From assembly GCF_030813715.1 (NCBI RefSeq), contig NZ_JAUSUZ010000001.1, forward strand, positions 2,418,001 to 2,482,000: a DNA stretch of 64,000 nt. Direction: 5' to 3'. Position numbers and translations under genes: made by a program. The notes beneath the pieces were generated by a model, which made no database searches, was not told where the DNA came from, and was given only the letters and a program-made list of their open reading frames with translations. This document shows, one piece after another, positions 39,928 to 58,024 of the stretch (position 1 is the stretch's first letter; every line of letters starts with the position of its first letter). Source of the DNA: Catenuloplanes indicus. Lineage in GTDB: Bacteria > Actinomycetota > Actinomycetes > Mycobacteriales > Micromonosporaceae.

Positions 39928-39941
39928 GATTGGATCCAATC
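39928..39941. promoter_or_regulatory. Shared palindrome, copy 1 (before the Rieske gene)
   Basis: GATTGGATCCAATC is a perfect 14-bp palindrome 60-73 bp upstream of the Rieske oxygenase start. Copies with the same core TTGGATCCAA lie at 44444, 47603 and 49704, all in promoter regions of the same catabolic island. The likely binder is the GntR protein at 46803. Confidence 0.85.
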
Positions 39942-40000
39942 TTGCAGGCATGGGATGCCGAACAAGACGTAAGTGATCCAAGGAGAGAGAGGCCCGCACG

Positions 40001-41332
40001 GTGCTCAAGCGCGAGGACAACGAACGCGTCACCCGGAGCGGGCCCGGCACGCCGCTCGGCAAACTGCTGCGCGCCTACTGGCAGCCCGCCGCCCTGGTCT
40101 CCGAGATGACGCCGGACCGCCAGGTCAAGCCGGTCCGGCTGCTCGGCGAGGACCTCGTCCTGTTCCGGAAGCCGGACGGCGGCTGGGCGCTGGTCGGGCG
40201 GTTCTGCGCGCACCGCGGCGTGGACCTGGCGTTCGCCCGGCACGAGGAGGGCGGCCTGCGCTGTCTCTATCACGGCTGGCTCTACGGCGCGGACGGCCAG
40301 TGCAAGGAGCAGCCGGCCGAGCCCGCGCACAGCCGGTTCGCCGAGCGGATCCGGATCCCGGCGTACCCGTGCGTGGAGAGGAACGGCATCGTCTTCGCCT
40401 ACCTCGGCGAGGGCGACCCGCCGCCGTTGCCGTACTACGACGCGTTCCAGGCGCCGGACGAGTACACGTTCGCGTTCAAGGGCCTGTGGGAGTGCAACTG
40501 GCTGCAGGGCCTGGAGGGCGGCATCGATCCGAGTCACGTCAGCTTCCTGCACCGGTTCATCGACGAGGATCCGCGCGAGGTCTACGGCCAGCAGTTCAGC
40601 GAGATCGTCGAGGGCACCGGGCAGAAGCTGTCCAAGCTGGTCGGCGACTCGTACCGGCCGGACATCGAGGTGGAGGAGGCCGATCACGGGCTGCGCGTCT
40701 ACGCGCTGCGGCAGCTCACCGAGGGCGTCAAGCACGTCCGGATCACGAACCTGGTGTTCCCGAACGCGTTCGTGGTGCCGTTCGGCACCAGCAAGGTCTT
40801 CATCCAGTGGCACGTACCGATCGACGACCACCACCACTACTGGTACATGATCTGGTACGACTTCGCGGAGCGGACCGACAGGGACACGCTGCTCCAGCAG
40901 CGCCTGGGCGAGGTCACGCTGCCCGACTACCGGCCGCTGCGGAACAGGACCAACAACTGGGGGTACGACCCGGCCGAGCAGCGCGATCTCACGTACACCG
41001 GCATGGGTCTGGACATCAACGTCCACGACCAGTGGGCGGTGGAGAGCATGGGCGCGATCCAGGACCGCACCACCGAGCGCCTCGGCGTCTCGGACCGCGC
41101 GGTCACCGCGAACCGCCGCATGCTGCTGCGCGCGATCGACGCGTTCGAGCAGGGCGGCACGGTACCGGCCCGGCCGGCCGGTGAGGCGGACGCGGCCCGG
41201 CTGACCGGCCCGCTCGCGGTCGACACGATCGCGCCGAACGACGGCTGGGAGGAGACCTGGCGGCGGCGCGAGGCCGAGCGCCGGGAAGCCTCCCCGTGGG
41301 CGTCCCCGCGGACGGACCACGCGGATGCCTAG
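40001..41332 (+). CDS. Rieske non-haem iron oxygenase, alpha subunit (phthalate-dioxygenase type)
   Basis: A 443-residue oxygenase component. The Rieske [2Fe-2S] ligands are Cys69-x-His71 (FCAHRG) and Cys88-x2-His91 (CLYHGW). The mononuclear iron site is in GGIDPSHVSFLH (bridging Asp176, His179, His184). The N-terminus (REDNERVTRSGPGTPLGKLL) resembles the phthalate 4,5-dioxygenase group, which forms trimers and draws electrons from a PDR-type flavo-iron-sulfur reductase. No reductase or ferredoxin gene is seen in the island. It probably hydroxylates or dealkylates a ring or amine substrate. The GTG start follows AAGGAGAGAGAGG and overlaps the next gene by 8 bp. Confidence 0.88.
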   Translation: MLKREDNERVTRSGPGTPLGKLLRAYWQPAALVSEMTPDRQVKPVRLLGEDLVLFRKPDGGWALVGRFCAHRGVDLAFARHEEGGLRCLYHGWLYGADGQCKEQPAEPAHSRFAERIRIPAYPCVERNGIVFAYLGEGDPPPLPYYDAFQAPDEYTFAFKGLWECNWLQGLEGGIDPSHVSFLHRFIDEDPREVYGQQFSEIVEGTGQKLSKLVGDSYRPDIEVEEADHGLRVYALRQLTEGVKHVRITNLVFPNAFVVPFGTSKVFIQWHVPIDDHHHYWYMIWYDFAERTDRDTLLQQRLGEVTLPDYRPLRNRTNNWGYDPAEQRDLTYTGMGLDINVHDQWAVESMGAIQDRTTERLGVSDRAVTANRRMLLRAIDAFEQGGTVPARPAGEADAARLTGPLAVDTIAPNDGWEETWRRREAERREASPWASPRTDHADA

Positions 41333-42839
41333 CGTCGACGAGCGGCCGGTCGCGGAGGGCGGTGGCGGCTGGGACGCGCGCCCGATGCTGGCCGCGGACC
41401 GCGGCGGTTTCGTCGACCGGCACGAGCTGTGGACGCAGGCGCAGTACGCCGCGGCCGGCCAGCTCCGCCGGGTGATCGACGAGCTGGGCCTGGAGCTGGT
41501 CCGGTTCTCGTTCGCGGACCAGCACGGCGTGCTGCACGGCAAGACGCTGACCCGGGCGGCCGTGCCGGGCGCGCTCCGCTCCGGGGTCACCGCGCCCAGC
41601 TCGCTGCTGCTCAAGGACTCGTCCGGCCGGTCCGCGTTCCCGGTCTTCACGCCGGACGCGCGGGCGGGCTTCGCCGGTGCCGGTGACGTGGTCCTGGTGC
41701 CGGACCCGACCACGTTCCGGGTGCTGCCGTGGGCGGAGAAGACCGGCTGGGTCCTCTGCGACCTGCGTTTCCCGGACGGCTCCCCGGTCCCGTTCTGCAC
41801 GCGCTCGATGCTCAGGAGCCAGATCGGCAAGCTCGGCGACCACGGGTACGACATGACGGTCGGCGTCGAGCTGGAGTTCCACGTGTTCCGCGCCGAGGAG
41901 GCCGCGTTCGCCGCCGACCGGGTCGGCGGACCGGGCGCGCCCGGACGCCCGCCGCGGGTCGGCCCGGTCAGCGGCGGCGCGCAGCTGCTGCACGAGGAGG
42001 GCCTGGACCGCGTGGACGAGGTGGTCCAGCTGTTGCAGCGTGGGCTGACCACGCTGGATCTGCCGCTGCGCTCGATCGAGCTGGAGTTCGGCCCGAGCCA
42101 GCTGGAGATCACCATGCAGGCCGGGAGCGCGCGGGACGCCGCGGACCAGGTGGTGCTGGCGCGCAGCGCGATCCGGCAGATCTGCCGCCGCGCCGGATAC
42201 CACGCCACGTTCATGTCCCGGCCGGCCGGCGCCGCGACCGCGTCCACCGGCTGGCACCTGCACCAGTCGCTGCGTGAGCGGGCGACCGGGCGGCCCGCGT
42301 TCGACCCCGGGCCGGACGAGACGCTGATGTCCGGCACGGCCCGGCACTGGCTGGGCGGGCTGCTGGCGCACGCACCGGCCGCGGCCGCGTTCACCACGCC
42401 GACCGTCAACGGCTACAAGCGCTACCTGCCGTTCTCCCTCGCGCCGGACCGGGTGCTGTGGGGCGCGGACAACAAGGGCGCGATGGTCCGCGTGGTGGGC
42501 GGCGGCACGGACACGGGCGCGCGGCTGGAGAACCGGTCCGGCGAACCCGCGGCCAGCCCGTACCTCTACATCGCGTCACAGATCGTGAGCGGCCTGGACG
42601 GGCTGAAGCACGCGATCGACCCGGGCCCCCCGACCGAGAACCCGTACGCCGCGGACGCGGTCCGGCTGCCGCAGTCGCTCGGCGCCGCGGTGGACGCGCT
42701 GGAGGCGGACCCGCTCTTCGCGGACGCGTTCGGCGCCCGCACCGTCGACTGGTACGCGAAGCTCAAGCGTGACGAGTTCGCCCGCTACCTGGCGCACGTC
42801 TCCGACTGGGAGCAGCGCGAATACTTCGACCTGTTCTGA
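41325..42839 (+). CDS. Glutamine-synthetase-like ligase (gamma-glutamyl-amine synthetase type)
   Basis: A 504-residue member of the GS superfamily. The N-terminal grasp part is VRFSFADQHGVLHGKTLT; the catalytic part has GVELEFHVF, IELEFGPSQLEITMQ, HLHQSLRE, NGYKRYLPFSLAPDRVLWG and GADNKGAMVRV (residues lining the ATP and Glu sites), and later ENRSGEPAASPYLY. It differs from true glutamine synthetase by lacking the adenylylation-loop pattern and by sequence divergence. Relatives such as PuuA, IpuC, GlnA3 and AtdA1 ligate glutamate to amines. The start overlaps the Rieske stop by 8 bp, so ligation and oxygenation are probably consecutive steps. Confidence 0.82.
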   Translation: MPSVDERPVAEGGGGWDARPMLAADRGGFVDRHELWTQAQYAAAGQLRRVIDELGLELVRFSFADQHGVLHGKTLTRAAVPGALRSGVTAPSSLLLKDSSGRSAFPVFTPDARAGFAGAGDVVLVPDPTTFRVLPWAEKTGWVLCDLRFPDGSPVPFCTRSMLRSQIGKLGDHGYDMTVGVELEFHVFRAEEAAFAADRVGGPGAPGRPPRVGPVSGGAQLLHEEGLDRVDEVVQLLQRGLTTLDLPLRSIELEFGPSQLEITMQAGSARDAADQVVLARSAIRQICRRAGYHATFMSRPAGAATASTGWHLHQSLRERATGRPAFDPGPDETLMSGTARHWLGGLLAHAPAAAAFTTPTVNGYKRYLPFSLAPDRVLWGADNKGAMVRVVGGGTDTGARLENRSGEPAASPYLYIASQIVSGLDGLKHAIDPGPPTENPYAADAVRLPQSLGAAVDALEADPLFADAFGARTVDWYAKLKRDEFARYLAHVSDWEQREYFDLF

Positions 42840-42855
42840 GAGGACGTGTCCCGAC

Positions 42856-44289
42856 ATGCGCGAGCTCGAACCCTTCCTGATCGACGGCGAGTGGATCCCC
42901 CCGGGCGACCGGGAGACGTGGCCGGTGATCGACCCTTCGAACGGCGAGGTGCTGACCCGCGTCGCCCAGGCCACCGACGAGGACGTGGACGCGGCCGTGG
43001 CTGCGGCCGCGCGGGCGCATGCAGACCGCCGCTGGTCCGGGTTGCCGCCGCTGGAACGCACCCGGATCCTGAGCCGGCTCGCTGACCTGATCGAGGAGAA
43101 CCTGGAGGAGCTGGCCGTCCTGGAGACCCGGGACAACGGCAAGCCGATCGAGCGTTCCCGGGCCGACACCGCGTTCGCCGCCAAGGACTTCCGGCACTTC
43201 GCGGGCGCGCCCGGCCGGCTCACCGGCACGGTCGTCCCGATCGACGGCGGCGCACACCACGTCTACACCGTGCGGGAGCCGGTCGGCGTGGCCGCGCTGA
43301 TCCTGCCGTGGAACTTTCCGATCATGACGGCCGCGCACAAGCTGGCCCCGGCGCTCGCGGCCGGCTGCACGGTCGTGGTCAAGCCGGCCGAGCAGACGCC
43401 GCTGACCATGCTCCGGCTGGCCGCGCTCGGCGAGCGGGCCGGGCTGCCCGCGGGCGTGCTGAACGTGCTGACCGGAGACGGCCGCACCGGCGCCGCACTG
43501 GTCGCGCACCCGGGTGTGGCGAAGGTGTCGTTCACCGGCTCGACCGAGGTGGGCCGGCGGGTGATGGTCTCGGCCGCGGCCACCACCAAGCGGCTCACGC
43601 TGGAGCTGGGCGGCAAGAGCCCGAACATCGTGTTCGCGGACGCGGACCTGGACGCCGCGACCACCACCGCCATGCGCGCGTCGTTCGGGCACTCCGGGCA
43701 GATGTGCACGGCCGGCAGCCGGCTGCTGGTGCAGCGCTCGATCCTGGACGAGATGGTGGAGCGCCTGACCGCGGCGACGCACGAGGTGCCGGTCGGCAAC
43801 GGGCTGGACGGCGGGATCTCGGTCGGGCCGCTGGTCTCCGAGGAACAGCGGCAGATCGTGCTGTCCTACATCGAGAAGGGGCGTGCCGAGGGCGCCACCG
43901 TCGTCGCCGGCGGTGGCGTCCCGGACCGGCCGGGTTTCTTCGTCGAGCCGACGCTGTTCACCGGCGTCACGAACGACATGACGATCGCGCGTGAGGAGAT
44001 CTTCGGACCGGTCGCCGGCGTGATCGCGTTCGAGGACGAGGAGGAGGCGCTGGCGATCGCGAACGACACCGGCTACGGCCTCGCCGCCGGCGTCTGGACG
44101 CGCGATCTGTCCCGCGCCCACCGGATGGCCTCGCGCCTGCACGCCGGCACGGTGTGGGTGAACACCTACAACATCTTCGACCCGGCGCTGTCCTTCGGCG
44201 GCGTCGGCGACTCCGGCCTCGGCCGCGACCTCGGCGACGAGGCCCTGCACGCCTTCACCGAATCGAAAGGCGTCGTCATCGCGCTGTGA
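42856..44289 (+). CDS. NAD(P)-dependent aldehyde dehydrogenase
   Basis: A 477-residue ALDH-superfamily enzyme oxidising an aldehyde to a carboxylate. Features are ILPWNFPIMTAAHKLAPALA, VSFTGSTEVGRRVM, the catalytic Glu in LELGGKSPNIVF, and the catalytic Cys in GHSGQMCTAGSRLLV. The C-terminal block SFGGVGDSGLGRDLG is typical of betaine/gamma-aminobutyraldehyde-type ALDHs. The ATG at 42856 is 16 bp after the ligase stop. It would handle the aldehyde released by the flavoprotein oxidase or the copper amine oxidase of the same island. Confidence 0.9.
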   Translation: MRELEPFLIDGEWIPPGDRETWPVIDPSNGEVLTRVAQATDEDVDAAVAAAARAHADRRWSGLPPLERTRILSRLADLIEENLEELAVLETRDNGKPIERSRADTAFAAKDFRHFAGAPGRLTGTVVPIDGGAHHVYTVREPVGVAALILPWNFPIMTAAHKLAPALAAGCTVVVKPAEQTPLTMLRLAALGERAGLPAGVLNVLTGDGRTGAALVAHPGVAKVSFTGSTEVGRRVMVSAAATTKRLTLELGGKSPNIVFADADLDAATTTAMRASFGHSGQMCTAGSRLLVQRSILDEMVERLTAATHEVPVGNGLDGGISVGPLVSEEQRQIVLSYIEKGRAEGATVVAGGGVPDRPGFFVEPTLFTGVTNDMTIAREEIFGPVAGVIAFEDEEEALAIANDTGYGLAAGVWTRDLSRAHRMASRLHAGTVWVNTYNIFDPALSFGGVGDSGLGRDLGDEALHAFTESKGVVIAL

Positions 44290-44443
44290 TCCCGGCCGTC
44301 GCTCCGCTCCTCCGGCTCGGCGCCGTTCCCGCCGAGGACAGACGAGATCCAGACGAAGTGCGTGTCCGGATCTCGCGCCTCACGTGGGTGGCGGCGTTCC
44401 CGACGGGGCGCGCCCCGCTCGTACCCGCTGGCGTTTTGATCTT

Positions 44444-44457
44444 GATTGGATCCAATA
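44444..44457. promoter_or_regulatory. Shared palindrome, copy 2 (before the aminotransferase-oxidase fusion gene)
   Basis: GATTGGATCCAATA: the central 12 bp ATTGGATCCAAT are a perfect palindrome. It lies 29-42 bp upstream of the GTG at 44486, in a 196-bp gap that otherwise shows no gene, so it could overlap the promoter. Confidence 0.85.
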
Positions 44458-44485
44458 TGAGGGCTTTGACATCCAGGGACGTGCC

Positions 44486-46792
44486 GTGACGCGGTTGGAC
44501 CCGGCGGCGTTGCGTGCCGGGACGCCGGGGATGCGGTATGCGCGGCACTTCAACGCGGCCGGGTCGGCGCTGCCGAGCGCGGCCGTGCTGGAGACCGTGA
44601 TCGAGCACCTGCGGCTCGAGGCGACGATCGGCGGGTACGAGGCGGCGGAGGTCGCGCGGGAACGGCACGAGCAGGTGTACGCGCTCGCGGCCCGGCTGGT
44701 CGGCGGCACCGCGGACGACATCGCGCTGACCGAGAGCGCGACCGTGGCCTGGCACGCCGCGATGGACGCGGTCCCGTTCGCGCCCGGCGACCGGATCCTG
44801 GCGTCCGCGTCGAGCTACGTCAGCTCCGCGATCCACCTGTTCCGGCTGCGCGAGACGTACGGCGTGATCATCGAGGTGCTGCCCTGCGCACCGGACGGCA
44901 CGGTCGACCTGGAGGCACTGGAGAAGGCGCTGCGCGCACCGGTCCGGCTGGTCACGATCGCGCACGTGCCGACGTCGTCCGGGCTGGTCGAGCCGGTGGC
45001 GGAGGTGGCGGCGCTGGCGAACGCGGCCGGCGTGCCGCTGCTGCTGGACGCGGTGCAGTCGCTCGGCCAGCTGCCGGTCGACCTGGCCGCGCTGGGCGTC
45101 GATCTCGCGGTCGGCACCGGGCGGAAGTTCCTGCGCGGGCCGCGCGGCACCGGGCTGCTCTACGCGTCGCCGCGCATCCGCGAGCTGCTGCGCCCGGCCC
45201 GCCCGGACGTCCGCGGCGCGGTCTGGAGCAGCCCGGACGGCTACCGGGTGAAGGACGGCGCGCGGCGCTTCGAGACCTGGGAGACCGCGCACGCGCTGCG
45301 GCTCGGTCTGGGCACCGCGCTCCGCGAGGCGCTGGACCCGGGCGTGGACGCGATCCACTCCTACACGGCCGGGCTCGCCGGCCGCCTGAAGGACGCGCTG
45401 GCCACGGTGCCCGGCGTGACGCTGACGGACCCGCCGGCGGCCGGTGGCGCGATCGTGACGTTCGTGGTGGACCGGGAGGAACCCGCGGACACGGTACGGC
45501 GGCTGCGCGCCGCCGGCGTCCACGTCACCTCGGTGCCGGACCACCACGGCCGGTGGGATCTCGGGCGCCGCGGGCTGAGGTCAGTCGTACGCGCGTCGGT
45601 GCACGTCTACAACGACGAGTCGGACGTCTCGGCGCTGACGGCGGCACTGGGGAGATCCGGGTCCGCACCGGCGTTCGTTCCATCGGGGTCCCGCGCGGAC
45701 GTGATCGTGGTCGGCGCGGGCGTGCACGGTGGCGCGGCCTCCTGGCACCTCGCCCGGCGCGGCGCCTCGGTGATCCAGCTTGAGCGGTTCGCGGACGGGC
45801 ATCACCAGGGCTCGTCGCACGGACACATCCGGATGATCCGCCGCGCCTACCCGAACCCGGTCTGGGACGAGCTGGTCGACCACGCCTATCTCGCCTGGTC
45901 GGAACTGTCCGAGGCGGCCGGCGAGACGCTGCTGACCACGACCGGCGGGCTCTACGCGCGCCCGGCCGCGGACGGCACGCCCGGGCTGCGCGGGCCCGCC
46001 TGCGAGACGGTGGACGCGGCCCGGGCCGCGCAGATCTTCCCGGGGCTGCGGCTCGGCGACGAGTTCACCGCCGTGTACGACCCGGCGGCCGGCGTGCTGG
46101 ACGCGGCCGCCGCCATGCGCGCGCTGCGGTCGCTGGCGGTCGCGGCCGGCGCCGACCGGCGTACCGGCGTGCGGGTCCTGGGCTGGGAGCCGGACGGCGA
46201 CGGCGTCACGGTACGCACCCCGGACGGCGTGCTGCGCGCGGACCGCCTGGTCGTCGCGGCCGGGCCGTGGACCGGCGCGCTGGTGCCGTCGCTGCGGGAC
46301 CTGCTGCGCGTGGTGCGGATCGTCAACATCCACGTCGGCGCGTCGGACGTGGCGCGGGTGTCCGCGCCGGCGCTCGGGCCGTTCTCCGTCGACGTGCCGG
46401 GCGTGGGGCTGCTCTACGGACTGCCCGCGTTCGACGGCGCGGCACTCAAGATCGGGCTGGACCACGGCCCGGCCGACGACCCGGATCGCCCGCAGACGCC
46501 GGTGACCGCGGCCGAGGCCGCCGAGCTGCTGGTGCTTGCTCGCCGATTCCTGCCCGCGGCCGACGGCGACGTGGTCGACTCGGTGTCATGCCGGTACACG
46601 ATGGCGCCACGGAACCGGTTCGCGGTGGGCGCGCTGCCGGACGTGCCGCAGGTGCTGGTCGCGGCCGCGTGCTCCGGGCACGGCTTCAAGTTCGGCCCGG
46701 CGATCGGCGCGGCGCTGGCCGATCTCGCGCTCGGCAAGCAGCGCCCGGACCTGGACTTCCTGGCACCGGGCGCGCTCGGAACCGCGCCGTGA
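44486..46792 (+). CDS. Fusion of class V aminotransferase and sarcosine-oxidase-like flavoenzyme
   Basis: A continuous 768-residue protein. Residues about 1-395 are a class V PLP aminotransferase (RHFNAAGSALPS; IAHVPTSSGLVEP; LLLDAVQSLGQLPVD; PLP Lys near 212 in GTGRKFLRGPRGTG). From about 400 an MSOX-type FAD oxidase begins (DVIVVGAGVHGGAASWHLAR; GSSHGHIRMIRRAYP), with the covalent-FAD Cys candidate in SCRYTMAP (near 702) and CSGHGFKFGPAIG near the end. There is no stop or frameshift between the parts. It could oxidise an N-substituted amino compound and transaminate or cleave the product without release. The start GTG follows AGGGA. Confidence 0.85.
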   Translation: MTRLDPAALRAGTPGMRYARHFNAAGSALPSAAVLETVIEHLRLEATIGGYEAAEVARERHEQVYALAARLVGGTADDIALTESATVAWHAAMDAVPFAPGDRILASASSYVSSAIHLFRLRETYGVIIEVLPCAPDGTVDLEALEKALRAPVRLVTIAHVPTSSGLVEPVAEVAALANAAGVPLLLDAVQSLGQLPVDLAALGVDLAVGTGRKFLRGPRGTGLLYASPRIRELLRPARPDVRGAVWSSPDGYRVKDGARRFETWETAHALRLGLGTALREALDPGVDAIHSYTAGLAGRLKDALATVPGVTLTDPPAAGGAIVTFVVDREEPADTVRRLRAAGVHVTSVPDHHGRWDLGRRGLRSVVRASVHVYNDESDVSALTAALGRSGSAPAFVPSGSRADVIVVGAGVHGGAASWHLARRGASVIQLERFADGHHQGSSHGHIRMIRRAYPNPVWDELVDHAYLAWSELSEAAGETLLTTTGGLYARPAADGTPGLRGPACETVDAARAAQIFPGLRLGDEFTAVYDPAAGVLDAAAAMRALRSLAVAAGADRRTGVRVLGWEPDGDGVTVRTPDGVLRADRLVVAAGPWTGALVPSLRDLLRVVRIVNIHVGASDVARVSAPALGPFSVDVPGVGLLYGLPAFDGAALKIGLDHGPADDPDRPQTPVTAAEAAELLVLARRFLPAADGDVVDSVSCRYTMAPRNRFAVGALPDVPQVLVAAACSGHGFKFGPAIGAALADLALGKQRPDLDFLAPGALGTAP

Positions 46793-46802
46793 ACGCCGGC
46801 GG

Positions 46803-47483
46803 TCAGCCCTTGAAGACGGTGGCGGAGCGGCGCTCGTACCAGCGGGCCAGCTGCTCGCCCGCGCTGAGCACGTGCGCCAGCATCTCCCGGCGTGCGGTCT
46901 CGGCGTCGTCCGCGGCCAATGCGGCCAGGATGCGCTCGTGCTCGGCGAAGTTGTCGTCCCGGTGACGCGGGTGCTCCTGCAGCACCAGCGCGGAGACGTT
47001 GCGCGGGAACGCCTCGTTTATCTCCTTGATCACCTTGGCCAGGCGCTCGTTGCCGGCGATCTGGTGGATGAGCGTGTGGAACCGGTCGTTCGCCGCGTGC
47101 GAGGCCGCGTTCGGCGGCGCGTCACCCGGTCGCAGCAGCTCGTTCGTGGCGCGCAGCTCCGCCAGCGAGTCGCGGGTCAGCCGGCGCACCGCGCGCTCGC
47201 AGGCCAGGCCCTCCAGCTCGGCACGCACCTCGTACGCCTCGCGCACCTCCCACGGCGCCGGCACCCGGACGACCGCGCCACGGTTCGGCACCACCTCGAT
47301 CAGGCCGCCGGTCTGCAGCTGGCGCAGCGCCTCGCGGACCGGCGTGCGGCTGACGCCGAGCGTCTTGGCGAGCTCGGCCTGCCGCAGCTGCGCGCCGATC
47401 GGGATCTCGCCGGACATGATCCGCGCGCGGATGGCGGCGGCGGTCTCGTCGACGAGCGCGGTGCTGCTGGAGGAGTCGTCCAT
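46803..47483 (-). CDS. GntR-family regulator (FCD type)
   Basis: A 226-residue regulator. The winged helix spans about residues 12-75 (ARIMSGEIPIGAQLRQAELA; KTLGVSRTPVREALRQLQTG), followed by an all-helical FCD ligand-binding domain with metal-site-type His residues (AANDRFHTLIHQIAGN; HRDDNFAEHERILAAL). It is the only DNA-binding protein encoded inside the island and is transcribed divergently from the amine oxidase gene. A copy of the shared palindrome lies between them. It is the natural candidate for the TTGGATCCAA-binding regulator. FCD proteins are usually released by a carboxylate ligand. The start is set by AGAGG upstream of ATG 47483. Confidence 0.88.
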   Translation of the reverse strand: MDDSSSSTALVDETAAAIRARIMSGEIPIGAQLRQAELAKTLGVSRTPVREALRQLQTGGLIEVVPNRGAVVRVPAPWEVREAYEVRAELEGLACERAVRRLTRDSLAELRATNELLRPGDAPPNAASHAANDRFHTLIHQIAGNERLAKVIKEINEAFPRNVSALVLQEHPRHRDDNFAEHERILAALAADDAETARREMLAHVLSAGEQLARWYERRSATVFKG

Positions 47484-47602
47484 TGTGGCCTCTTCGTGAA
47501 GACAAACGCCTTCAGTCGTTTTTGGGGGCGGGGGTCGGGGCGGCAGCCGGGGCGCCCCACCATAGCAAGTCCACAGCATGAGTGGATGCGGTCTATCCCA
47601 AG

Positions 47603-47614
47603 TTTGGATCCAAA
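47603..47614. promoter_or_regulatory. Shared palindrome, copy 3 (between gntR and the copper amine oxidase gene)
   Basis: TTTGGATCCAAA, a 12-bp perfect palindrome within the wider imperfect repeat AGTTTGGATCCAAAAACT (47601-47618). It sits in the 198-bp divergent promoter region and could give autoregulation and control of the amine oxidase at once. Confidence 0.82.
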
Positions 47615-47681
47615 AACTCTATCGTCGTATCCCGGATTCTCGTATGGTCACCACACGACAGCGCACAGACAGGAGCCGCCG

Positions 47682-49619
47682 ATGAGCGCCTGCCACACCA
47701 CCTCCGACGACGGCGGACGGACCGCTCGCTCGCACCCGCTCGACCCGCCGACCGCGGACGAGATCTCGCGTGCGGTCGCGGCCGCCCGCGCGGACGGCCG
47801 GCTCGGCGACCCGGCCCGGTTCTGGGGTGCCACGCTCGACGAGGCGCACGCCCGCCGGGTGCTCGCGGGTGCGGCTACCGGGGTACGGATCGGCCTGGTC
47901 GGCATGCGGATCGACGGCGAAGGCGCCTGGGAGATCGACATCCTGCTGGGCGAGGCCGGGGACGAGGTCACGGACTGGCGCCCGATCGACCCGCGCCGCC
48001 CCGGAATCACCTCGGACGAGGCCCGGGCCGCCGCGCGCGCCTGCCGGGAGAGCCCGCTGTTCCAGGAGGTCATGGCGCGGCGCGGCATTCACGACGTGTC
48101 GCTCTGCATGATCGACGCGGAGTCGATGGGCGGTTTCGAGCCGGAGAAGTACCGGGGCCGAAGGATCACCTGGGGCACGGTCTGGCACCGCACCACCGAG
48201 GACGACAACGGCTACGCCCGGCCGGTCCAGGGCGTGGTGCCGATCATCGACATGCACACCATGGAGGTGCTGGAGGTCGAGGACCACGGGATCATCCCGG
48301 TCTCCGCCGAGGCCGGCCCGCTCACCACCGGCGGCTTCGGCCCGGACCGGCCCGGCCTGAAGACGCTGGAGGTCACGCAGCCCGACGGCCCTAGCTTCAG
48401 CGTCGACGGCTGGAAGGTCGGCTGGCAGGGCTGGACGTTCCGGGTCGGCTTCACCCACCGCGAGGGCCTGGTCCTCTACGACCTGGAGTTCCTCGGCCGG
48501 TCCGTGCTCAAACGCGCGGCCTGCAACGAGATGTACGTGCCGTACCTGGACTCGAACTCCACGCAGTACCGGAAGAACTTCTTCGACTGGGGCGAGTACG
48601 GCGCCGGCCCGCTGACCAACTCGCTCGCGCTCGGCTGCGACTGCCTCGGCGTCATCCACTACTTCGACGGCACCCACCTCGGCGGGTACGGCGACCCGGT
48701 GACGATCAAGAACGCGATCTGCATGCACGAGGAGGACGACAGCATCCTCTGGAAGCACAACGATCTGCGCCGCGGCGTCAGCGAGGTCCGCCGCTCACGC
48801 CGCCTGATCATCTCGAACTTCCAGACCGTGGCGAACTACGACTACGGCTTCTACTGGTCGCTCTACCAGGACGGCCGGATCGAGCTGGAGGTGAAGCTGA
48901 CCGGCATCCTCTCCGCCTCCGGCATCAACTCCGGCGACGAGGTGCCGTACGGCCGGCAGGTCTCCGAGCTGGTCCAGGCGCCGATCCACCAGCACTACTT
49001 CGGCATCCGGCTGGACACCGCGGTCGACGGCGCGCGCAACCGGCTGGCCGAGGTGCACGCGGCGGCGGAGCCGGACCCGGCGCTCAACCCGTACGGCAAC
49101 GCGGTCCGCTTCGTGCGCGAGCCGCTGACCGTGGAGACCGGGCAGCGCAACGACCCGGCGACCGCGCGGCACTGGCGGATCGAGTCGGCGGACCGGACCA
49201 ACCGGTACGGCGAGCCGACCGCGTACCAGCTGCGGATACCGGACACCACGCGTAGCTTCGGCCGGCCGGACTCGGTGATGGCGACCCGCGCGCCGTTCAT
49301 CCACCAGCACCTGTGGGCCACGCCGTACGCGGAGGACGAGAACTTCATCGGCGGGCAGTACCCGAACCACGCGGAGCCGGGCGAGGACGGCGTGCACGTC
49401 TGGCAGCGCCAGCAGCGCTCGATCGACGGCGTGCCGCTGGTGCTCTGGCCGGTGCTCGGCACGCACCACCTGCCGCGGCCGGAGCAGTGGCCGGTGATGC
49501 CGGTCGAGGCGATCCACCTGACGCTGGCGCCGGACGGCTTCTTCGACCGCAACCCGGCGCTCGACATCCCCGACCCGGCGGCGGCGCGCGCCTCCGAGCC
49601 GGATTCCTGCTGCTCATGA
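47682..49619 (+). CDS. Copper/topaquinone amine oxidase
   Basis: A 645-residue enzyme converting a primary amine with O2 to aldehyde, ammonia and H2O2. The topaquinone precursor is Tyr386 in N-Y-D-Y (TVANYDYGFYW). The catalytic base is Asp302 (FFDWGEYGAG), 84 residues earlier as in Arthrobacter phenylethylamine oxidase. Copper ligands are His436 and His438 (APIHQHYFG) plus a His near 596 (GTHHLPRPEQWPVMP). There is no signal peptide, so it is cytoplasmic, as are many actinobacterial homologues. The start follows AGGAG. The aldehyde could feed the island's ALDH. Confidence 0.93.
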   Translation: MSACHTTSDDGGRTARSHPLDPPTADEISRAVAAARADGRLGDPARFWGATLDEAHARRVLAGAATGVRIGLVGMRIDGEGAWEIDILLGEAGDEVTDWRPIDPRRPGITSDEARAAARACRESPLFQEVMARRGIHDVSLCMIDAESMGGFEPEKYRGRRITWGTVWHRTTEDDNGYARPVQGVVPIIDMHTMEVLEVEDHGIIPVSAEAGPLTTGGFGPDRPGLKTLEVTQPDGPSFSVDGWKVGWQGWTFRVGFTHREGLVLYDLEFLGRSVLKRAACNEMYVPYLDSNSTQYRKNFFDWGEYGAGPLTNSLALGCDCLGVIHYFDGTHLGGYGDPVTIKNAICMHEEDDSILWKHNDLRRGVSEVRRSRRLIISNFQTVANYDYGFYWSLYQDGRIELEVKLTGILSASGINSGDEVPYGRQVSELVQAPIHQHYFGIRLDTAVDGARNRLAEVHAAAEPDPALNPYGNAVRFVREPLTVETGQRNDPATARHWRIESADRTNRYGEPTAYQLRIPDTTRSFGRPDSVMATRAPFIHQHLWATPYAEDENFIGGQYPNHAEPGEDGVHVWQRQQRSIDGVPLVLWPVLGTHHLPRPEQWPVMPVEAIHLTLAPDGFFDRNPALDIPDPAAARASEPDSCCS

Positions 49620-49703
49620 CGGATGCGTTCCGGACCGGACGACCGGGTCGGCGACACATCTTGTTCACGAACCCGATACGCCACCGCAGCGGTCGGGTCG
49701 CAG

Positions 49704-49717
49704 GATTGGATCCAATC
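49704..49717. promoter_or_regulatory. Shared palindrome, copy 4 (before the peptide-type transporter operon)
   Basis: GATTGGATCCAATC, identical to copy 1, lies 68-81 bp upstream of the ATG of the solute-binding protein gene. Its position relative to the start (about 70 bp) is nearly the same as for the Rieske gene. Confidence 0.85.
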
Positions 49718-49784
49718 CCAACGGAATGAAATCCCAAATAGCCAAACTTTGATACCGATGCTTGTTTCCTGAAGGAGCCCCCAC

Positions 49785-51410
49785 ATGACGGACCTCGGCA
49801 AGCACGCAGTCTCCCGCCGGAACATACTCCGCGGCGCGGCCATTCTGGGCATGGGCGCCGGTTTCACCAGCCTGCTCGCGGCCTGTGGCATCGCCGCCGA
49901 GGAGGGCGAGAACGGCGGCAAGACCGGCGGCACGCTGACGCTGGCGATCGACGGCACCAGCGCGGTCAACGACCCGGCGTTCTACACCACGCTCGGCGAC
50001 TGGATGGTCGTCGACTGCGTCTGCCGCGGCCTCACGTTCATCGACTACGAGACCACCGAGCCGAAGCCGGACATGGCGGAGAGCTGGACGGTCTCCGAGG
50101 ACGCGCTGACCTACACGTTCACGCTGCGCCAGGGCATCACGTTCCACGACGGTACGACGCTCACCTCCGCGGACGTGCTGGCCAGCCTGAACCGGCAGTT
50201 CAACAAGGACGACCCGAGCCTGCCGGAGGGCGCGTCGCGGCCGCTGAACAGCCTCGGCACCAACGTCGCGTCGCTGACCGGCCCGGACGCGAGCACCGTG
50301 GTCATCGTGCTGAAGAAGCCGGACCGTACGCTGCTCGGCCGGCTCTCCGACATCGGCGCGCGGATCATCTCCAAGGCCGCGCTGGACAAGCACGGCAAGG
50401 ACATCGGCAAGAACCTGGTCGGCACCGGGCCGTTCAAGCTCGTCTCGGCCACGTCCGGGCAGAACGTCACGCTGGAGGCGTTCGACGGCTGGTACAAGGG
50501 CAAGGCGCCGATCGACCGGCTGGTCATGCAGCAGGTCACCGACCCGTCCACGATCGTCAGCTCGCTGCTCTCCGGCGACATCGGCGCCACCCAGTTCACG
50601 CCGTACTCCGCACTGGACCAGCTGCGCGGCGACGCGTCGGTGACGGTCTACGACACGCCGAAGAGCTTCGACGCGTTCATGATGATGGACGTCCGCCGCA
50701 TCCCCGAGCTGGAGGTGCGCCAGGCGATCAACATGGCGGTGGACCGGCAGGCACTGATCGCGCAGGCGTTCTTCGGCGCGGCCGTGCTGCCGGACGGCTA
50801 CACGATCCCGCCGGGCCAGGACACGCACGACCCGAGCCTGGCCGACCTCAGCGCCACCGACGTCGAGGAGGCGAAGCGGCTGATCGCGGCTGCCGGTGCG
50901 ACCGGCCGCACGGTGCGCCTGATGGCCGCGAGCGACAGCTGGCACCCGAAGGCCGCGCAGATCATCGCGCAGAACCTGACGGACATCGGGCTCAAGGTGG
51001 AGAGCGACTCGGTCGACCCGGCCGCGTACTTCAACCGGCTGCTGGACCCGGCCGACCGGTTCCACGACATCATGATCTGGGAGCGGAACGGCTACTACCC
51101 GGACGCGGACGACATGATCGGCTCGCTGGCCCGCCCGTCCGGCGTCTACGGCGACTTCATCTCCGGCTTCAAGACGCTGGACGGCGCCGCCGAGTACGCC
51201 GACAAGCTCTTCGAGGCGAAGAACATCGCGGACGTCGCCGCCCGCAAGGCCCGCTACACCGAGATCCAGCGCGAGTGGGCAGAAAAGTACATGACGCTGT
51301 CGATGCTGGTCACCGGCGCGAACCCGGTGGTCAGCGGCAAGAACGTCGAGGGCATGAACTGGAAGGCCCTCGGCAGCCACCGCTGCTACATGGAAAACGC
51401 GAGTGTCTAG
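49785..51410 (+). CDS. Peptide/opine-type ABC transporter solute-binding lipoprotein
   Basis: A 541-residue SBP_bac_5 (DppA/OppA-like) protein. The N-terminus has a twin-arginine motif (SRRNILRGAAILG) followed by a lipobox (LLAACG), so it is exported folded and lipid-anchored. Family blocks are LTYTFTLRQGITFHDGTTLT, GTGPFKLV and VRQAINMAVDRQALI. It captures a peptide-, amide- or amine-type substrate for the island. It begins a run of ten genes joined by overlaps or gaps of under 12 bp. Its stop overlaps the next start by 8 bp. Confidence 0.9.
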   Translation: MTDLGKHAVSRRNILRGAAILGMGAGFTSLLAACGIAAEEGENGGKTGGTLTLAIDGTSAVNDPAFYTTLGDWMVVDCVCRGLTFIDYETTEPKPDMAESWTVSEDALTYTFTLRQGITFHDGTTLTSADVLASLNRQFNKDDPSLPEGASRPLNSLGTNVASLTGPDASTVVIVLKKPDRTLLGRLSDIGARIISKAALDKHGKDIGKNLVGTGPFKLVSATSGQNVTLEAFDGWYKGKAPIDRLVMQQVTDPSTIVSSLLSGDIGATQFTPYSALDQLRGDASVTVYDTPKSFDAFMMMDVRRIPELEVRQAINMAVDRQALIAQAFFGAAVLPDGYTIPPGQDTHDPSLADLSATDVEEAKRLIAAAGATGRTVRLMAASDSWHPKAAQIIAQNLTDIGLKVESDSVDPAAYFNRLLDPADRFHDIMIWERNGYYPDADDMIGSLARPSGVYGDFISGFKTLDGAAEYADKLFEAKNIADVAARKARYTEIQREWAEKYMTLSMLVTGANPVVSGKNVEGMNWKALGSHRCYMENASV

Positions 51411-52266
51411 TCTCGCCGCCCCGGCCCGCCTCCGCTCCGCGCTCGCGGGGCGGAGGCTCGGGCGTGGCCCGCTCGCGGCCGGCTCGTGGGTGATCGTGGT
51501 GCTGTTCGTCCTCGTCGCCACGGTCGGCCCGCTGCTGGTCGGCGCGGACCCGGCCCGCGGGACCAACGACACGCTGCTGCCGCTCGGCACGCCCGGGCAC
51601 CCGCTGGGTACCGACGACCTCGGCCGCGACGAACTGGCCCGGATGGTCCACGGCGCCCGGCCGCTGCTGATGGTCGCGTTCCTCTCCACCGGCCTGGCCG
51701 CGCTGCTGGGCATCGGCGTCGGGCTGCTGGCCGGGTACGCCGGTGGGTGGATCGAGTGGGGCCTGATGCGGCTGATGGACCTGGCGCTGGCGTTCCCGTC
51801 GATGCTGCTGATCATCCTGATCGTGTCCGCGTGGCGGCCCGGCGTGGGCAGCATGGTGGTCGGCATCGCGCTCGCGCTCGCGCCCGGCCTGGCCCGGCTC
51901 GCCCGCGCGCTGGCCGCCCGCGAGGCCCGCCGCGACTACGTGCTCGCGGCCAAGCTCGGCGGCACCCGCGGCCCGCGCATCCTGGTGCAGGAGATCCTGC
52001 CGAACATCGCCGGCCCGATGCTCGCCCAGGTGGTCATGACGCTCTCCGTCGCCGCCGGGTTCGCCGCCGGTCTCTCCTACCTCGGGCTGGGCATCCAGCC
52101 CCCGACTCCGGACTGGGGATACATGGTGCAGGCCGGCCAGGAGTTCCTCTACACCGCGCCGCGGCTCGTGGTGCTGCCGGCGGCGGCGACGCTGCTGTTC
52201 GTGGTGGCCTGCAACTTCGTCGGCGACGACCTGCGCGACGCGCTCGATCCGCGGGGGTCCCGATGA
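51403..52266 (+). CDS. ABC transporter permease (DppC type)
   Basis: A 287-residue permease with DppC features: a membrane N-terminus (GSWVIVVLFVLVATVGPLLV), then the PLGTDDLGRDELARMVHGAR motif and the EAA-like loop (YVLAAKLGGTRGPRILVQEI). About six helices are present. It forms the importer channel with the DppB-like subunit that follows. In most Dpp operons the B-type gene comes first; here C precedes B. The start is GTG, overlapping the binding-protein stop. Confidence 0.88.
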   Translation: MSSLAAPARLRSALAGRRLGRGPLAAGSWVIVVLFVLVATVGPLLVGADPARGTNDTLLPLGTPGHPLGTDDLGRDELARMVHGARPLLMVAFLSTGLAALLGIGVGLLAGYAGGWIEWGLMRLMDLALAFPSMLLIILIVSAWRPGVGSMVVGIALALAPGLARLARALAAREARRDYVLAAKLGGTRGPRILVQEILPNIAGPMLAQVVMTLSVAAGFAAGLSYLGLGIQPPTPDWGYMVQAGQEFLYTAPRLVVLPAAATLLFVVACNFVGDDLRDALDPRGSR

Positions 52267-53318
52267 GGCTGCGCGACTCCCTCCGTACCCCCTGGATGGT
52301 TCTGAAACGGCTCTCCGCGGTGCCGCTCGTGCTGCTCGTGCTGGCCACCATGGTCTTCGTCGCGATGCGCATGCTGCCCGGATCACCCGCCACGTCGCTG
52401 GCGGTCGGCGGCGGCGCCGCGAGCCAGTCCTCGGCCGAGGAGATCGCGGCGAGCGAGCAGCGGATCAACGAGGCGCTCGGCCTGAACGACTCGCTGGCCG
52501 ACCAGTACACGACGTTCCTCCGCGACGTGCTCACGCTCGACCTGGGCCGGTCGTTCTTCGGCGGCAACGACGTGACCGGCCTGCTCGGCGACTCGCTGCC
52601 GGCCACGATCGAGCTGACCGTCGCCGCGATGCTGATCGCGGTGCTGATCGGCATGGTCACCGGCGTGCTCGCGGCGCTGCGCAAGGACACCTGGATCGAC
52701 ACCACCACCCGCACGATCGGCACGGTCAGCTTCTCGCTGCCCTGGTTCGCGCTCGGCGTGCTCTCCATCGTCGTCTTCGGCGTGTGGCTGCGCTGGCTGC
52801 CGGTCATCGGCCGGCTGCCGAACGCGCTGGACTACGACCCGTTCACCAACTTCGTGCTGCTGGACGCGATCCTGCAGGACCGGCCGGAGCTGATCTGGCC
52901 GTGGATCCGGCACCTGATCCTGCCGGCCACCACGCTGGCGCTGTCGATGGCCGGGTTCATCACCCGGATCGTGCGCGCGTCCGTGCTCGAGGTGCTCAGC
53001 GACGACTTCGTGCGGACCGCGCGGATGAAGGGCCTGTCCGGCGCCACGATCATGCGCCGGCACGTCCTGCGCAACTCGTCGCTGCCGATCGTCACCGTGC
53101 TCGGCCTGCAGTTCGGCTCGCTGCTCGGCGGCTCGGTGATCACCGAGACCGTCTTCTCCTATCCCGGCGTCGGCAACCTGCTGGTGAACGGCATCCTGCA
53201 GCGCGACTACCCGATCGTGCAGGGCGCCGCGCTCGCCATCGCGCTGCTGTTCACGCTGGTCAACGTCGTCGTGGACCTGCTCTACCTGGCACTCGACCCC
53301 CGGCTCCGGAAGGCCTGA
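52263..53318 (+). CDS. ABC transporter permease (DppB type)
   Basis: A 351-residue permease. The N-terminal helix is VPLVLLVLATMVFVAMRMLP, followed by a periplasmic region with QRINEALGLNDSLADQYTTF and LDLGRSFFGGNDVTGLL, both typical of DppB. The EAA-like loop is DFVRTARMKGLSGATIMRRH, and the end is TVFSYPGVGNLLVNGILQRD. Its ATG overlaps the previous stop (ATGA). Confidence 0.88.
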   Translation: MRLRDSLRTPWMVLKRLSAVPLVLLVLATMVFVAMRMLPGSPATSLAVGGGAASQSSAEEIAASEQRINEALGLNDSLADQYTTFLRDVLTLDLGRSFFGGNDVTGLLGDSLPATIELTVAAMLIAVLIGMVTGVLAALRKDTWIDTTTRTIGTVSFSLPWFALGVLSIVVFGVWLRWLPVIGRLPNALDYDPFTNFVLLDAILQDRPELIWPWIRHLILPATTLALSMAGFITRIVRASVLEVLSDDFVRTARMKGLSGATIMRRHVLRNSSLPIVTVLGLQFGSLLGGSVITETVFSYPGVGNLLVNGILQRDYPIVQGAALAIALLFTLVNVVVDLLYLALDPRLRKA

Positions 53319-53321
53319 CAC

Positions 53322-53999
53322 ATGCACATCGTCCTCGTCCACGGCGCCGGCGGGACCCCGACCACCTGGTCCGAGGTCACGCCGCTGCTGGCCGCCGCCG
53401 GCCACCCGCACACGCTCGTCACCAACCCGATGACGTCCCTGGAGGACGATGTCGCGCACACCCGCGCCGTGGCCGAGGGCGTCGGCGGGCCGGTGCTGCT
53501 GGTCGGTCACTCCTACGGCGGCGCGGTGATAACCAACGTGGGCCGCTCCGACGTGGTGAAGGGACTCGTCTACGTGGCCGCGTTCGCACCGGACGAGGGC
53601 GAGACCGTGAACGGCATCGTGGAGCGCTACCCCCCGGCCGAGGTCTCCAAGTTCATGCGGCGCGGCCCGAACGGCGAGTGGAAGTCCGAACACACCGACG
53701 AGTACTGGGCCGAGATCGGCTGGGACGTGCCGGTCGAGCAGCGGGTCATCTGGGACACCGAGTCCCGGCAGAGCGACAACCGGATCTTCACCCAGCCGAC
53801 CGGCGAGCCCGCGTGGCGGACCAAGCCGGCCTGGTACCTGGTCGCGGCCGAGGACAGGACGCTCAGCACGGTCGTCCAGCGGGACATGGCCGCGCGCGCG
53901 AACGCGATCACCGAGGAGGTGCCGGGCAGCCACTTCACGCCGCGCGTCCGGCCGGCCGAGGTGGTCGCGTTCATCGAGAAGGCCCTGGCCGCGCTGTGA
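53322..53999 (+). CDS. Alpha/beta hydrolase
   Basis: A 225-residue alpha/beta hydrolase. The oxyanion region is VLVHGAGGTPTTW, the nucleophile elbow GHSYGGAVI (Ser), the acid probably Asp in VAAEDRTLS, and the catalytic His in PGSHFTPRVRP. It resembles small esterases such as salicylate-esterase-like proteins. It is inserted between permease and ATPase genes of the transporter (gap 3 bp, then a 4-bp overlap), so it is surely cotranscribed and may cleave the imported compound. The substrate is unknown. Confidence 0.85.
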   Translation: MHIVLVHGAGGTPTTWSEVTPLLAAAGHPHTLVTNPMTSLEDDVAHTRAVAEGVGGPVLLVGHSYGGAVITNVGRSDVVKGLVYVAAFAPDEGETVNGIVERYPPAEVSKFMRRGPNGEWKSEHTDEYWAEIGWDVPVEQRVIWDTESRQSDNRIFTQPTGEPAWRTKPAWYLVAAEDRTLSTVVQRDMAARANAITEEVPGSHFTPRVRPAEVVAFIEKALAAL

Positions 54000-55018
54000 C
54001 CGCGCTGCTGGAGATCCGCGACCTGCGGGTGGAGTTCGACGTGCCGGCCGGGCGGCTGCCCGCGGTCGCCGGCATCGACCTCGACCTGCGCGCCGGTGAG
54101 CTGCTCGCGCTGGTCGGCGAGTCCGGCTCCGGCAAGTCCGCGCTCTCGATGAGCCTGGTCGGGCTGAACCGCGGGCCGGCCGCGCACATCAGCGGCGCGG
54201 TGCGCTTCGGCGGCCGGGACCTGGTGGCCGCGACCGAGAAGGAGCTGCGCGGCGTGCGCGGCAAGGACATCTCCGTGGTGTTCCAGGACGCGCTCGCCGC
54301 GCTCAACCCGACGCAGAAGGTCGGTGACCAGGTCGCCGAGATGATCCGCACGCACCGGCGGATCGGCCGCCGGGACGCCTGGAGGCGCGCGGAGGAGCTG
54401 CTCGGCGAGGTCGGCATCGCGAACCCGGCGCAGGCCGCGCGCGCCTACCCGCACCAGCTCTCCGGCGGCATGCGGCAACGCGTCATGATCGCGATCGGGC
54501 TGGCGAACGACCCGGCCGTGCTGATCGCGGACGAGCCGACCACCGCGCTGGACGTGACCATCCAGGCGCAGGTACTCAAGCTGCTCAAACGCCTCCAGGC
54601 CGAGCACGGCACGTCGATCGTGCTGATCACGCACGACCTCGGCGTGGTCGCGGAGGTCGCGGACCGGGTCGCGGTGATGTACGCGGGCCGGGTCATCGAG
54701 CAGGGCACCCGGGACGAGGTGCTGTTCGATCCGCAGCACCCGTACACGATGGCGCTGCTCGGCTCCGTCCCCCGCGTCGACGGGCCGCACGCGGACCGCC
54801 TCCCGGCGATCGCCGGCAGCCCGCTCACCGGCGTCACCCGGCCGCCCGGCTGCGCGTTCGCGCCCCGCTGCGCGTTCGCTTCGGACGGCTGCACGGATCA
54901 CGTGCCAGAACTGCGGCAGCGGTACGGCGGCCCCGGTCACCTGGACCGCTGCCTGCTGGACGAGCCGGCCCGGGTGCGGGCCCGAGCCGGCTCCGATCCC
55001 GAGGTGGTGACGCCGTGA
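53996..55018 (+). CDS. ABC transporter ATP-binding protein (DppD type)
   Basis: A 340-residue ATPase. Walker A is [14 protein letters not shown], signature [17 protein letters not shown], Walker [15 protein letters not shown], and H-loop [15 protein letters not shown]. The C-terminal oligopeptide-transporter domain has the four-Cys region [17 protein letters not shown], which in DppD/OppD relatives holds an Fe-S cluster. The GTG overlaps the hydrolase stop (GTGA), and its own stop overlaps the next start in the same way. Confidence 0.92.
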
Positions 55019-56034
55019 CGCCGAAACCCACGCCACTGCTGGAGCTGTCCGGGCTCCGCGTCGAGTTCAACGGCTCGGCCGGCCGGAAGGTACGCGCGGT
55101 CCGGGACGTCGACCTCGCCATCTACGAGGGGGAGACGCTCGGGCTGGTCGGCGAGTCCGGCTGCGGCAAGTCCACGCTCGGCCGGGCCATGCTGCGGATC
55201 ACCGAGCCGACCGCGGGCTCGATCAACTATCTCGGGCTGGACATCACCCGGCTGCGGGGCACGGTGTTCCGGCGTACCCGCGCGGATCTTCAGATGGTCT
55301 TCCAGGACCCGTTCGGGTCGCTCAACCCGCGCCGGACCATCGCGGACATCGTGGCCGAGCCGATGCTGCGGGCCCGCGGCATGGACCGCGCCTCCGCGCG
55401 GCAGGCCGTGGACGCGCTGCTGGAGCAGGTCGGCCTGGGCCGGGAGGCGGGCGCGCGGCGGCCGCACGAGTTCTCCGGCGGGCAGCGGCAGCGGATCGGG
55501 ATCGCCCGCGCGCTGGCGCCGTCACCGCGGTTCGTGGTCGCGGACGAGCCGGTCTCCGCGCTGGACGTGTCCATCCAGGCCCAGGTGATCAACCTACTCA
55601 CCGACCTGATCCGCGAGCGCGGCCTGACGATGCTGTTCATCTCGCACGACCTGGGCGTGGTCCGGCACATCGCGGACCGGATCGCGGTCATGTACCTCGG
55701 GCAGATCATCGAGATCGCGTCCAGGGACGACTTCTTCGCCGGGCCGGCCCACCCGTACGGCGAGGCGCTGCTGTCGTCCGTGCCGTCGCTCGGCTCGACC
55801 GCTCGCGAGCGGATCGAGCTGGCCGGTGAGCTGCCCGATCCCGCCGATCCGCCGCCGGGGTGCACGTTCCACACCCGCTGCCGGTACGCGATCGACCGCT
55901 GCACGACCGAGGCGCCCGAGCTGCGTGAGATCGCGCCCGGTCGGCAGGTCCGCTGCCACCTCCCGCTCGTCGCCCTGTCCACCGCGCCGCCGCCGTCCCC
56001 GGCCGCGCCCGTCTCGAAAGGCTCCATCGCATGA
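55015..56034 (+). CDS. ABC transporter ATP-binding protein (DppF type)
   Basis: A 339-residue ATPase. Walker A is GESGCGKSTLGRAML, signature EFSGGQRQRIGIARALA, Walker B FVVADEPVSALDVS, and H-loop ISHDLGVVRHIADRI. The C-terminal Cys region is PPGCTFHTRCRYAIDRC. It completes a five-subunit Dpp/Opp-type importer (binding protein, two permeases, two ATPases). It overlaps the following amidohydrolase gene by ATGA. Confidence 0.92.
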   Translation: MTPKPTPLLELSGLRVEFNGSAGRKVRAVRDVDLAIYEGETLGLVGESGCGKSTLGRAMLRITEPTAGSINYLGLDITRLRGTVFRRTRADLQMVFQDPFGSLNPRRTIADIVAEPMLRARGMDRASARQAVDALLEQVGLGREAGARRPHEFSGGQRQRIGIARALAPSPRFVVADEPVSALDVSIQAQVINLLTDLIRERGLTMLFISHDLGVVRHIADRIAVMYLGQIIEIASRDDFFAGPAHPYGEALLSSVPSLGSTARERIELAGELPDPADPPPGCTFHTRCRYAIDRCTTEAPELREIAPGRQVRCHLPLVALSTAPPPSPAAPVSKGSIA

Positions 56035-57226: not shown

Positions 57227-57233
57227 CGAACCC

Positions 57234-58013: not shown

Positions 58014-58024
58014 AAGGGATCTTC

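Follow-up and report, generated by a model that had tools for sequence, protein, structure and literature searches.

Putative VanR-type operators paired at 21 bp in a predicted amine-catabolic island of Catenuloplanes indicus

Here we describe a set of short palindromes with the core TTGGATCCAA in the genome of the actinomycete Catenuloplanes indicus (9,247,015 bases scanned, in two contigs), which lie in the promoter gaps of an island of predicted catabolic genes and are probably operators of the island's own regulator. The stretch of 64,000 nucleotides that was analysed, called the window throughout, comprises positions 2418001-2482000 of contig NZ_JAUSUZ010000001.1 (C1:2418001-2482000). The island comprises genes for a Rieske oxygenase, a glutamine synthetase (GS)-like enzyme, an aldehyde dehydrogenase (ALDH), a fusion of a class-V pyridoxal phosphate (PLP) enzyme with a DAO domain, a GntR regulator with an FCD domain, a copper amine oxidase and an ATP-binding cassette (ABC) transporter of the peptide type (Table 1).

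A first-pass annotation of this DNA had noted four identical-core palindromes in promoter gaps of the island and had judged them very unlikely to have arisen by chance. All four were recovered, as GATTGGATCCAATC at 39928 and 49704, GATTGGATCCAATA at 44444 and GTTTGGATCCAAAA at 47602, and the judgement agrees with the counts: with up to one mismatch allowed, four matches lie in the window against 0.31 expected, a number reached by none of 100 shuffles. A scan of the whole genome returned exactly four exact copies of the 10-mer, every one in a promoter gap of the island. With one mismatch allowed, the genome holds 14 matches (10 of them one-mismatch copies) versus 17 for a reversed control pattern; genome-wide, one-mismatch copies are not in excess, and the signal lies in the exact copies and their positions. 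From the end of the site to the likely start codon, as chosen by us, the gap measures 61 bp (Rieske gene, GTG 40001), 30 bp (fusion gene, GTG 44486), 68 bp (copper amine oxidase, ATG 47682) or 69 bp (solute-binding protein, ATG 49785); two of the four sites lie inside long open frames.

Each site is followed, exactly 21 bp downstream, by a degenerate second palindrome (four of four sites; Table 1), a feature missed in the first pass. At any other offset between 10 and 100 bp a partner is found for at most two of the four sites, and the rate over all offsets is 1.9%. The 64 kb contain no 21-bp pairs with a summed mismatch of 6 or less other than these four, which end 9-48 bp before the likely start codons.

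Table 1. Positions of the putative operators, their partners and the predicted genes (window coordinates unless preceded by C1)
Feature	Position	Strand	Context or basis
Putative operator 1, exact TTGGATCCAA	39930..39939	.	upstream of Rieske-GS-ALDH genes
Partner palindrome at +21, TGGGATGCCG	39951..39960	.	4 mismatches of 10
Putative operator 2	44446..44455	.	upstream of aminotransferase-V::DAO fusion gene
Partner palindrome at +21, TGACATCCAG	44467..44476	.	4 mismatches of 10
Putative operator 3	47604..47613	.	within divergent gntR / copper amine oxidase gap
Partner palindrome at +21, TCGTATCCCG	47625..47634	.	4 mismatches of 10
Putative operator 4	49706..49715	.	upstream of peptide-type ABC transporter operon
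Partner palindrome at +21, TGAAATCCCA	49727..49736	.	4 mismatches of 10
Rieske oxygenase with LigXa_C domain, phthalate 4,5-dioxygenase-like	40001..41332	+	Pfam, solved relatives
Glutamine-synthetase-like enzyme	41325..42839	+	closest solved relative NpaA1 (amine gamma-glutamylation)
Aldehyde dehydrogenase	42853..44289	+	profile match; 5' end provisional
Class-V PLP enzyme::DAO (sarcosine oxidase-like) fusion	44486..46792	+	Pfam
FCD-GntR regulator, proposed repressor	46803..47483	-	Pfam GntR + FCD; start ATG 47483 chosen
Copper amine oxidase, phenylethylamine oxidase-like	47682..49619	+	Pfam
ABC transporter operon: solute-binding protein, two permeases, alpha/beta hydrolase, two ATPases	49785..56034	+	Pfam
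Amidohydrolase, deaminase-like, creatininase, cyclase and gamma-glutamyltranspeptidase genes, after transporter	56031..60240	+	Pfam
Metallo-beta-lactamase (MBL)-fold hydrolase gene	C1:2483743-2484537 (L156:5741-6538)	-	domain match
Unlinked reductase gene	C1:8672098-8673012 (L157:4099-5016)	+	2Fe-2S (Fer2) + NAD-binding domains

Both the sites and their spacing recur in related genomes. A scan of the contig collection yielded 78 loci encoding a relative, of which 77, around gntR orthologues (L047-L123; 1,517,620 bases, GC 0.712), were used and one (L124, 27% identity) was dropped. In these loci TTGGATCCAA occurs 89 times, in 43 loci, versus 0.22 copies expected, and is the most enriched palindromic 10-mer among those with at least five copies. 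The promoters of orthologous islands, whose comparison had been suggested in the first pass, keep the sites: a copy with at most one mismatch is present in 75 of the 77 loci (none in L067 and L119), and close relatives retain gene order together with the sites. The 226 anchors (at most one mismatch) have 146 neighbours (at most three mismatches) at distance 21, a count in which a pair of two anchors enters twice, compared with 15 neighbours at the next best distance and a background expectation of 0.55. At a spacing of 21 bp, 72 of the 77 loci hold a pair with a summed mismatch of 4 or less, the partner usually being the weaker of the two; each other spacing from 11 to 31 bp is found in at most 13 loci.

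The palindromes also accompany the gntR orthologue, which supports the GntR-linked regulon of the first-pass annotation. A pair with a sum of at most 5 lies within 3.7 kb round gntR in 74 of the 77 orthologue loci, and at one of them (L117) the paired site stands at the gntR orthologue though no other island gene was matched. Near distant GntR homologues (30-37% identity) no pair was found in the 17 loci fetched, of 3.6 kb each, the lowest sum being 7. Among 151 related genomes, 40 contain an exact copy. Three genomes of the same genus (G002, G003 and G004) have exactly four exact copies each, within about 10 kb, as in this genome; in another (G001) the exact site is absent, the GntR protein finds no match above 34% identity, and neither the reductase of Table 1 (at E<=1e-25) nor the MBL-fold hydrolase (at E<=1e-30) has a match. 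Of 11 exact copies examined outside islands, seven in island genomes and four in G045, none has a 21-bp partner (at least five mismatches at +/-21), and the 21-bp pairing rule separated island copies from the examined chance copies. The four in G045, a genome without a close GntR relative, lie on four contigs (L132-L135); none of them is paired, and they therefore look like chance copies.

The core, which had seemed unfamiliar in the first pass, matches a named operator. The sequence ATTGGATCCAAT is given as VanO, the operator of VanR, a GntR-type repressor (PMC7970624), and all of its 12 bases are matched at 39929-39940, 44445-44456 and 49705-49716; the site at 47604 has the 10-bp core only. 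By this identity, the core is that of a VanR-type operator. The reference for VanR in PMC7970624 is Gitzinger 2012. In Caulobacter, reporter constructs on the vanillate promoter contain AATTGGATCCAATC (PMC6538847), and the VanR/VanO (vanAB) system of Caulobacter crescentus shares with the island an identical operator core, a Rieske oxygenase among the targets and a repressor of the GntR type (PMC12314914). The two TTGGATCC elements of the published Caulobacter sequence lie about 39 bp apart (counted by eye) as opposed to 21 bp in the island, and VanO has also been used as an engineered pair whose spacer measures 6 bp (PMC7970624). Unlike the targets of Caulobacter VanR, the island Rieske protein has a LigXa_C domain and no VanA-type match, and the other genes appear amine-catabolic. 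VanR2 of Pseudomonas sp. NGC7 is likewise of the GntR type and has several GGATCC-centred inverted repeats; it binds three GGGATCCC repeats at a vanAB-type operon, of which the one just downstream of the -10 element is decisive for repression, and its effectors are syringic-type acids (PMC12314914). Each of its repeats is bound on its own and repression depends on a single one, which distinguishes them from the proposed island pairs (PMC12314914). Atu1419 of Agrobacterium fabrum, a tetramer of the VanR group, recognizes 10-bp palindromes (ATGTATACAT), can bind two of them and reads an essential G at position 3 with Arg45 (PMC7797058). The conserved palindrome of the island, also 10 bp long, carries a G at position 3 of TTGGATCCAA as well; the two Atu1419 sites are 190 bp apart and can loop (PMC7797058), whereas those of the island are spaced by 21 bp.

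The regulator itself points to the same group. The island GntR matches PF00392 (N-terminal winged helix) and PF07729 (C-terminal FCD) above cut-off, and an FCD domain is present in Caulobacter VanR. Its AlphaFold model, computed from 30 orthologues, has a mean pLDDT of 87.4. Ranked by E-value, the first 12 Foldseek matches of this model are Atu1419 (VanR) and PmiR; a FadR chimera comes 37th and natural FadR entries follow from rank 44 onwards, at lower TM-scores, so that the predicted fold appears closer to VanR-group than to FadR structures. According to DSSP, seven helices follow the wing of the model, a number that falls to six when the break at residue 174 is read as a kink; members of the VanR group have no extra helix after the linker and six helices in the effector domain. 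In the 30 orthologues D136 is conserved to at least 90% and H139, H185 and H207 are invariant, all four being candidates for the Asp/His metal-site residues of FCD domains, and S48, R49, T50, P51, R53 and E54 of the presumed recognition helix are invariant as well.

The enzymes predicted from the island suggest gamma-glutamyl-amine catabolism. Against solved structures, the GS-like protein has its best match in 8wwu (445 bits; next 181), the structure of NpaA1, by which aromatic amines are gamma-glutamylated in a step that precedes a Rieske dioxygenase (PMC11335346). The copper amine oxidase has its closest relatives in phenylethylamine oxidases. In Pfam the Rieske protein matches only the LigXa_C, Rieske and Aromatic_hydrox models, phthalate 4,5-dioxygenase is among its closest solved relatives, and NCBIfam gave no match to a vanillate demethylase model at E<=0.001; a VanA model is present in Pfam. 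From these profiles the regulated Rieske gene does not appear to be the vanillate demethylase VanA, and in this respect the system would fall outside VanR proper. None of the 19 island-region proteins scanned with Pfam has a ferredoxin-reductase domain. The fusion gene joins an EgtE/SufS-like class-V half to a sarcosine oxidase-like DAO half, and the two halves adjoin each other in many orthologous loci.

By analogy, gamma-glutamylated or aromatic amines would fit as substrate. The Npa and Atd arylamine pathways likewise combine a GS-like gamma-glutamylating enzyme with a Rieske oxygenase and a reductase (PMC11335346); here the genes for the first two stand behind operator 1 and the reductase gene behind an imperfect pair of its own. 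The island differs from those pathways in its Rieske protein, which is of the LigXa type instead of the two-subunit AtdA3A4 type, in its unlinked reductase, and in its additional genes for a copper amine oxidase, the DAO fusion and ALDH.

The regulon had been thought private to the island, which looks wrong, because pairs also occur at the unlinked reductase gene and at the MBL-fold gene. A scan of the genome with the paired pattern gave 6 forward and 8 reverse matches (3 and 1 for the reversed control), comprising the four operators, operator 3 read once more in reverse, and nine further matches; a relaxed scan gave 19 and 15 matches versus 4 and 9. Two of the nine, picked because both members resembled the palindrome, were traced to genes. 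The reductase, which we take to be VanB/phthalate-dioxygenase-like, is encoded about 6.2 Mb from the island and has no second match in this genome at E<=1e-25. Its pair (C1:8672027-8672056) lies about 40 bp before the gene, in a promoter with three sites at 21-bp steps (-72, -51 and -30), each with 2-3 mismatches in this genome. Orthologues in G004 (86%) and G003 (80%) have the pair directly upstream, while in G002 (70%) a 2+2 pair stands 407 bp upstream of the orthologue, in front of a preceding gene; in all three genomes the reductase is again far from gntR or on another contig. The gene preceding the reductase in G002 (L164) is short and cupin-like by eye, with the paired operator upstream of it.

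The MBL-fold gene, located just outside the window at a distance of about 5.5 kb from the last island gene, carries a pair at its start (C1:2484537-2484566), as it does in G002, G003 and G004; a homologue in L106 (43%) has a 2+0 pair. The second site of the MBL promoter extends to the start codon, as would fit a leaderless transcript. Weak pair-like matches at three further positions (L200, L202 and L207; C1:3845868, C1:4009810 and C1:6576074) lie in DNA of lower G+C content and could be chance matches or minor regulon members.

In other genera the reductase gene lies within the stretch round gntR in 26 loci, and 22 of these reductases have a pair (sum of at most 5) within 260 bp, for instance 0+1 in L090 and 1+1 in L074. 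These loci speak for membership of the reductase in the cluster more than for a separate reductase operator. The unlinked reductase is a probable electron-transfer partner of the island Rieske oxygenase.

From the co-occurrence of the sites with gntR, observed in the sequences as are their pairing and conservation, and from the class of the regulator, we infer that the island GntR binds the sites. On these grounds we consider it probable (roughly 0.86) that the palindromes are VanR-type operators, read in pairs spaced by 21 bp by the island's own FCD-GntR, which would thereby run a dispersed regulon. A working operator would consist of two 10-bp palindromes 21 bp apart, in the window one perfect and one degenerate. 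A spacing of 21 bp corresponds to two helical turns and would place two dimers on the same face of the helix; most likely a pair of repressor dimers, or a single tetramer, would be bound there side by side. Repression would be favoured over activation because the pairs lie near start codons and because of the VanR precedents: bound GntR would cover the promoter and start region and block RNA polymerase, and an effector from the pathway of the imported amine would release it. The regulon would take in the Rieske/GS/ALDH, PLP-DAO fusion and transporter promoters and the gntR/copper amine oxidase gap, together with the MBL-fold gene and the unlinked reductase gene.

Several observations weigh against this interpretation. 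The window partners are weak, with four mismatches in ten positions each, and convince only through their fixed spacing and conservation. The 77 loci were found via gntR, include many close relatives and are phylogenetically clustered, so that they are not independent. By TM-score, the best match of the GntR model is the Brucella GntR 7u5q (0.79, versus 0.61 for Atu1419). Only two of the nine extra genome matches were traced to genes, having been picked by eye, and the reversed control gave four. In nearly all of the 22 loci with a pair near an in-stretch reductase, that gene is divergent from gntR and the gap could serve gntR alone; these operators are therefore not independent support for a dispersed regulon. 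The three in-stretch reductases situated away from gntR, in L071, L075 and L078, have no pair directly upstream, and that in L076 has two sites 20 bp apart. Six genomes with a gntR orthologue (G026, G034, G037, G062, G080 and G220) lack a pair upstream of their best reductase match, so their electron donor was not found; all six matches belong to a group of 22 homologues that are more distant from the reductase. No pair is present in the 3.8 kb stretch with the MBL homologue of G034.

The strongest alternative is that the reductase and MBL pairs are chance matches and the regulon is confined to the island. The reversed-control scans do yield a few matches, the reductase sites of this genome are imperfect, and other genera offer no independent support at an unlinked reductase. 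Nevertheless, each of the four genomes of the genus that contain the island has pairs with a sum of 4-5 at both genes (or, in place of the reductase, at the gene preceding it), and in the genomes searched none of the 22 more distant homologues of the reductase has a pair (lowest sum 9); we therefore regard a regulon limited to the island as unlikely, if the best-placed of the alternatives.

A slightly less likely alternative is that only the perfect palindrome matters and that its partner is a by-product of conserved promoter elements such as the -10 or start region. The window partner is weak and sits where a -10 box or a transcription start could be, and -10-like TANNNT hexamers are seen by eye in some promoters. 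This explanation is opposed by the many loci in which both members match the palindrome well (0+1, 1+1 or 2+1 mismatches, for example), by the stronger site being either the first or the second, and by the three sites at 21-bp steps in the reductase promoter.

It is improbable that the sites are read by another regulator, either a different FCD-GntR or a nearby PucR. The genome has 11 FCD matches, and a gene for a PucR-type regulator ends about 2.4 kb from operator 1, but in 74 of 77 loci the pair is found with the gntR orthologue, among them L117 with no other island gene matched, it is absent from all 17 distant-GntR loci fetched, and G001 lacks the orthologue and the exact sites alike. A chance or non-regulatory repeat can be practically dismissed: one-mismatch copies show no genome-wide excess, but conservation (89 copies versus 0.22 expected; 72 of 77 loci paired) and the confinement of exact copies to the island contradict it.

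The operator core, the regulator class and the presence of multiple operators per promoter are already known. In the open-licence literature we found no paper on tandem FCD/VanR operators and none that joins these enzyme families; as far as that literature goes, the fixed native pairing at 21 bp, the amine-type regulon and the unlinked reductase are new. We lean, by a little over even odds, towards a still wider proposal in which obligate 21-bp paired operators of an actinobacterial VanR-type repressor run a dispersed gamma-glutamyl-amine regulon, name the unlinked reductase of an orphan Rieske oxygenase and mark an undescribed amine pathway across many actinobacterial families.

This analysis assigns an unfamiliar palindrome to a named operator class and adds a rule open to test, a pair of palindromes at a distance of 21 bp. 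By this rule, partnerships between genes can be proposed where gene order gives no hint; in this genome it yields a candidate reductase for a Rieske oxygenase that has none beside it. The analysis also sketches which genes make up an amine-degradation system of many actinobacterial genera, and the substrate of that system could be sought via what releases the repressor.

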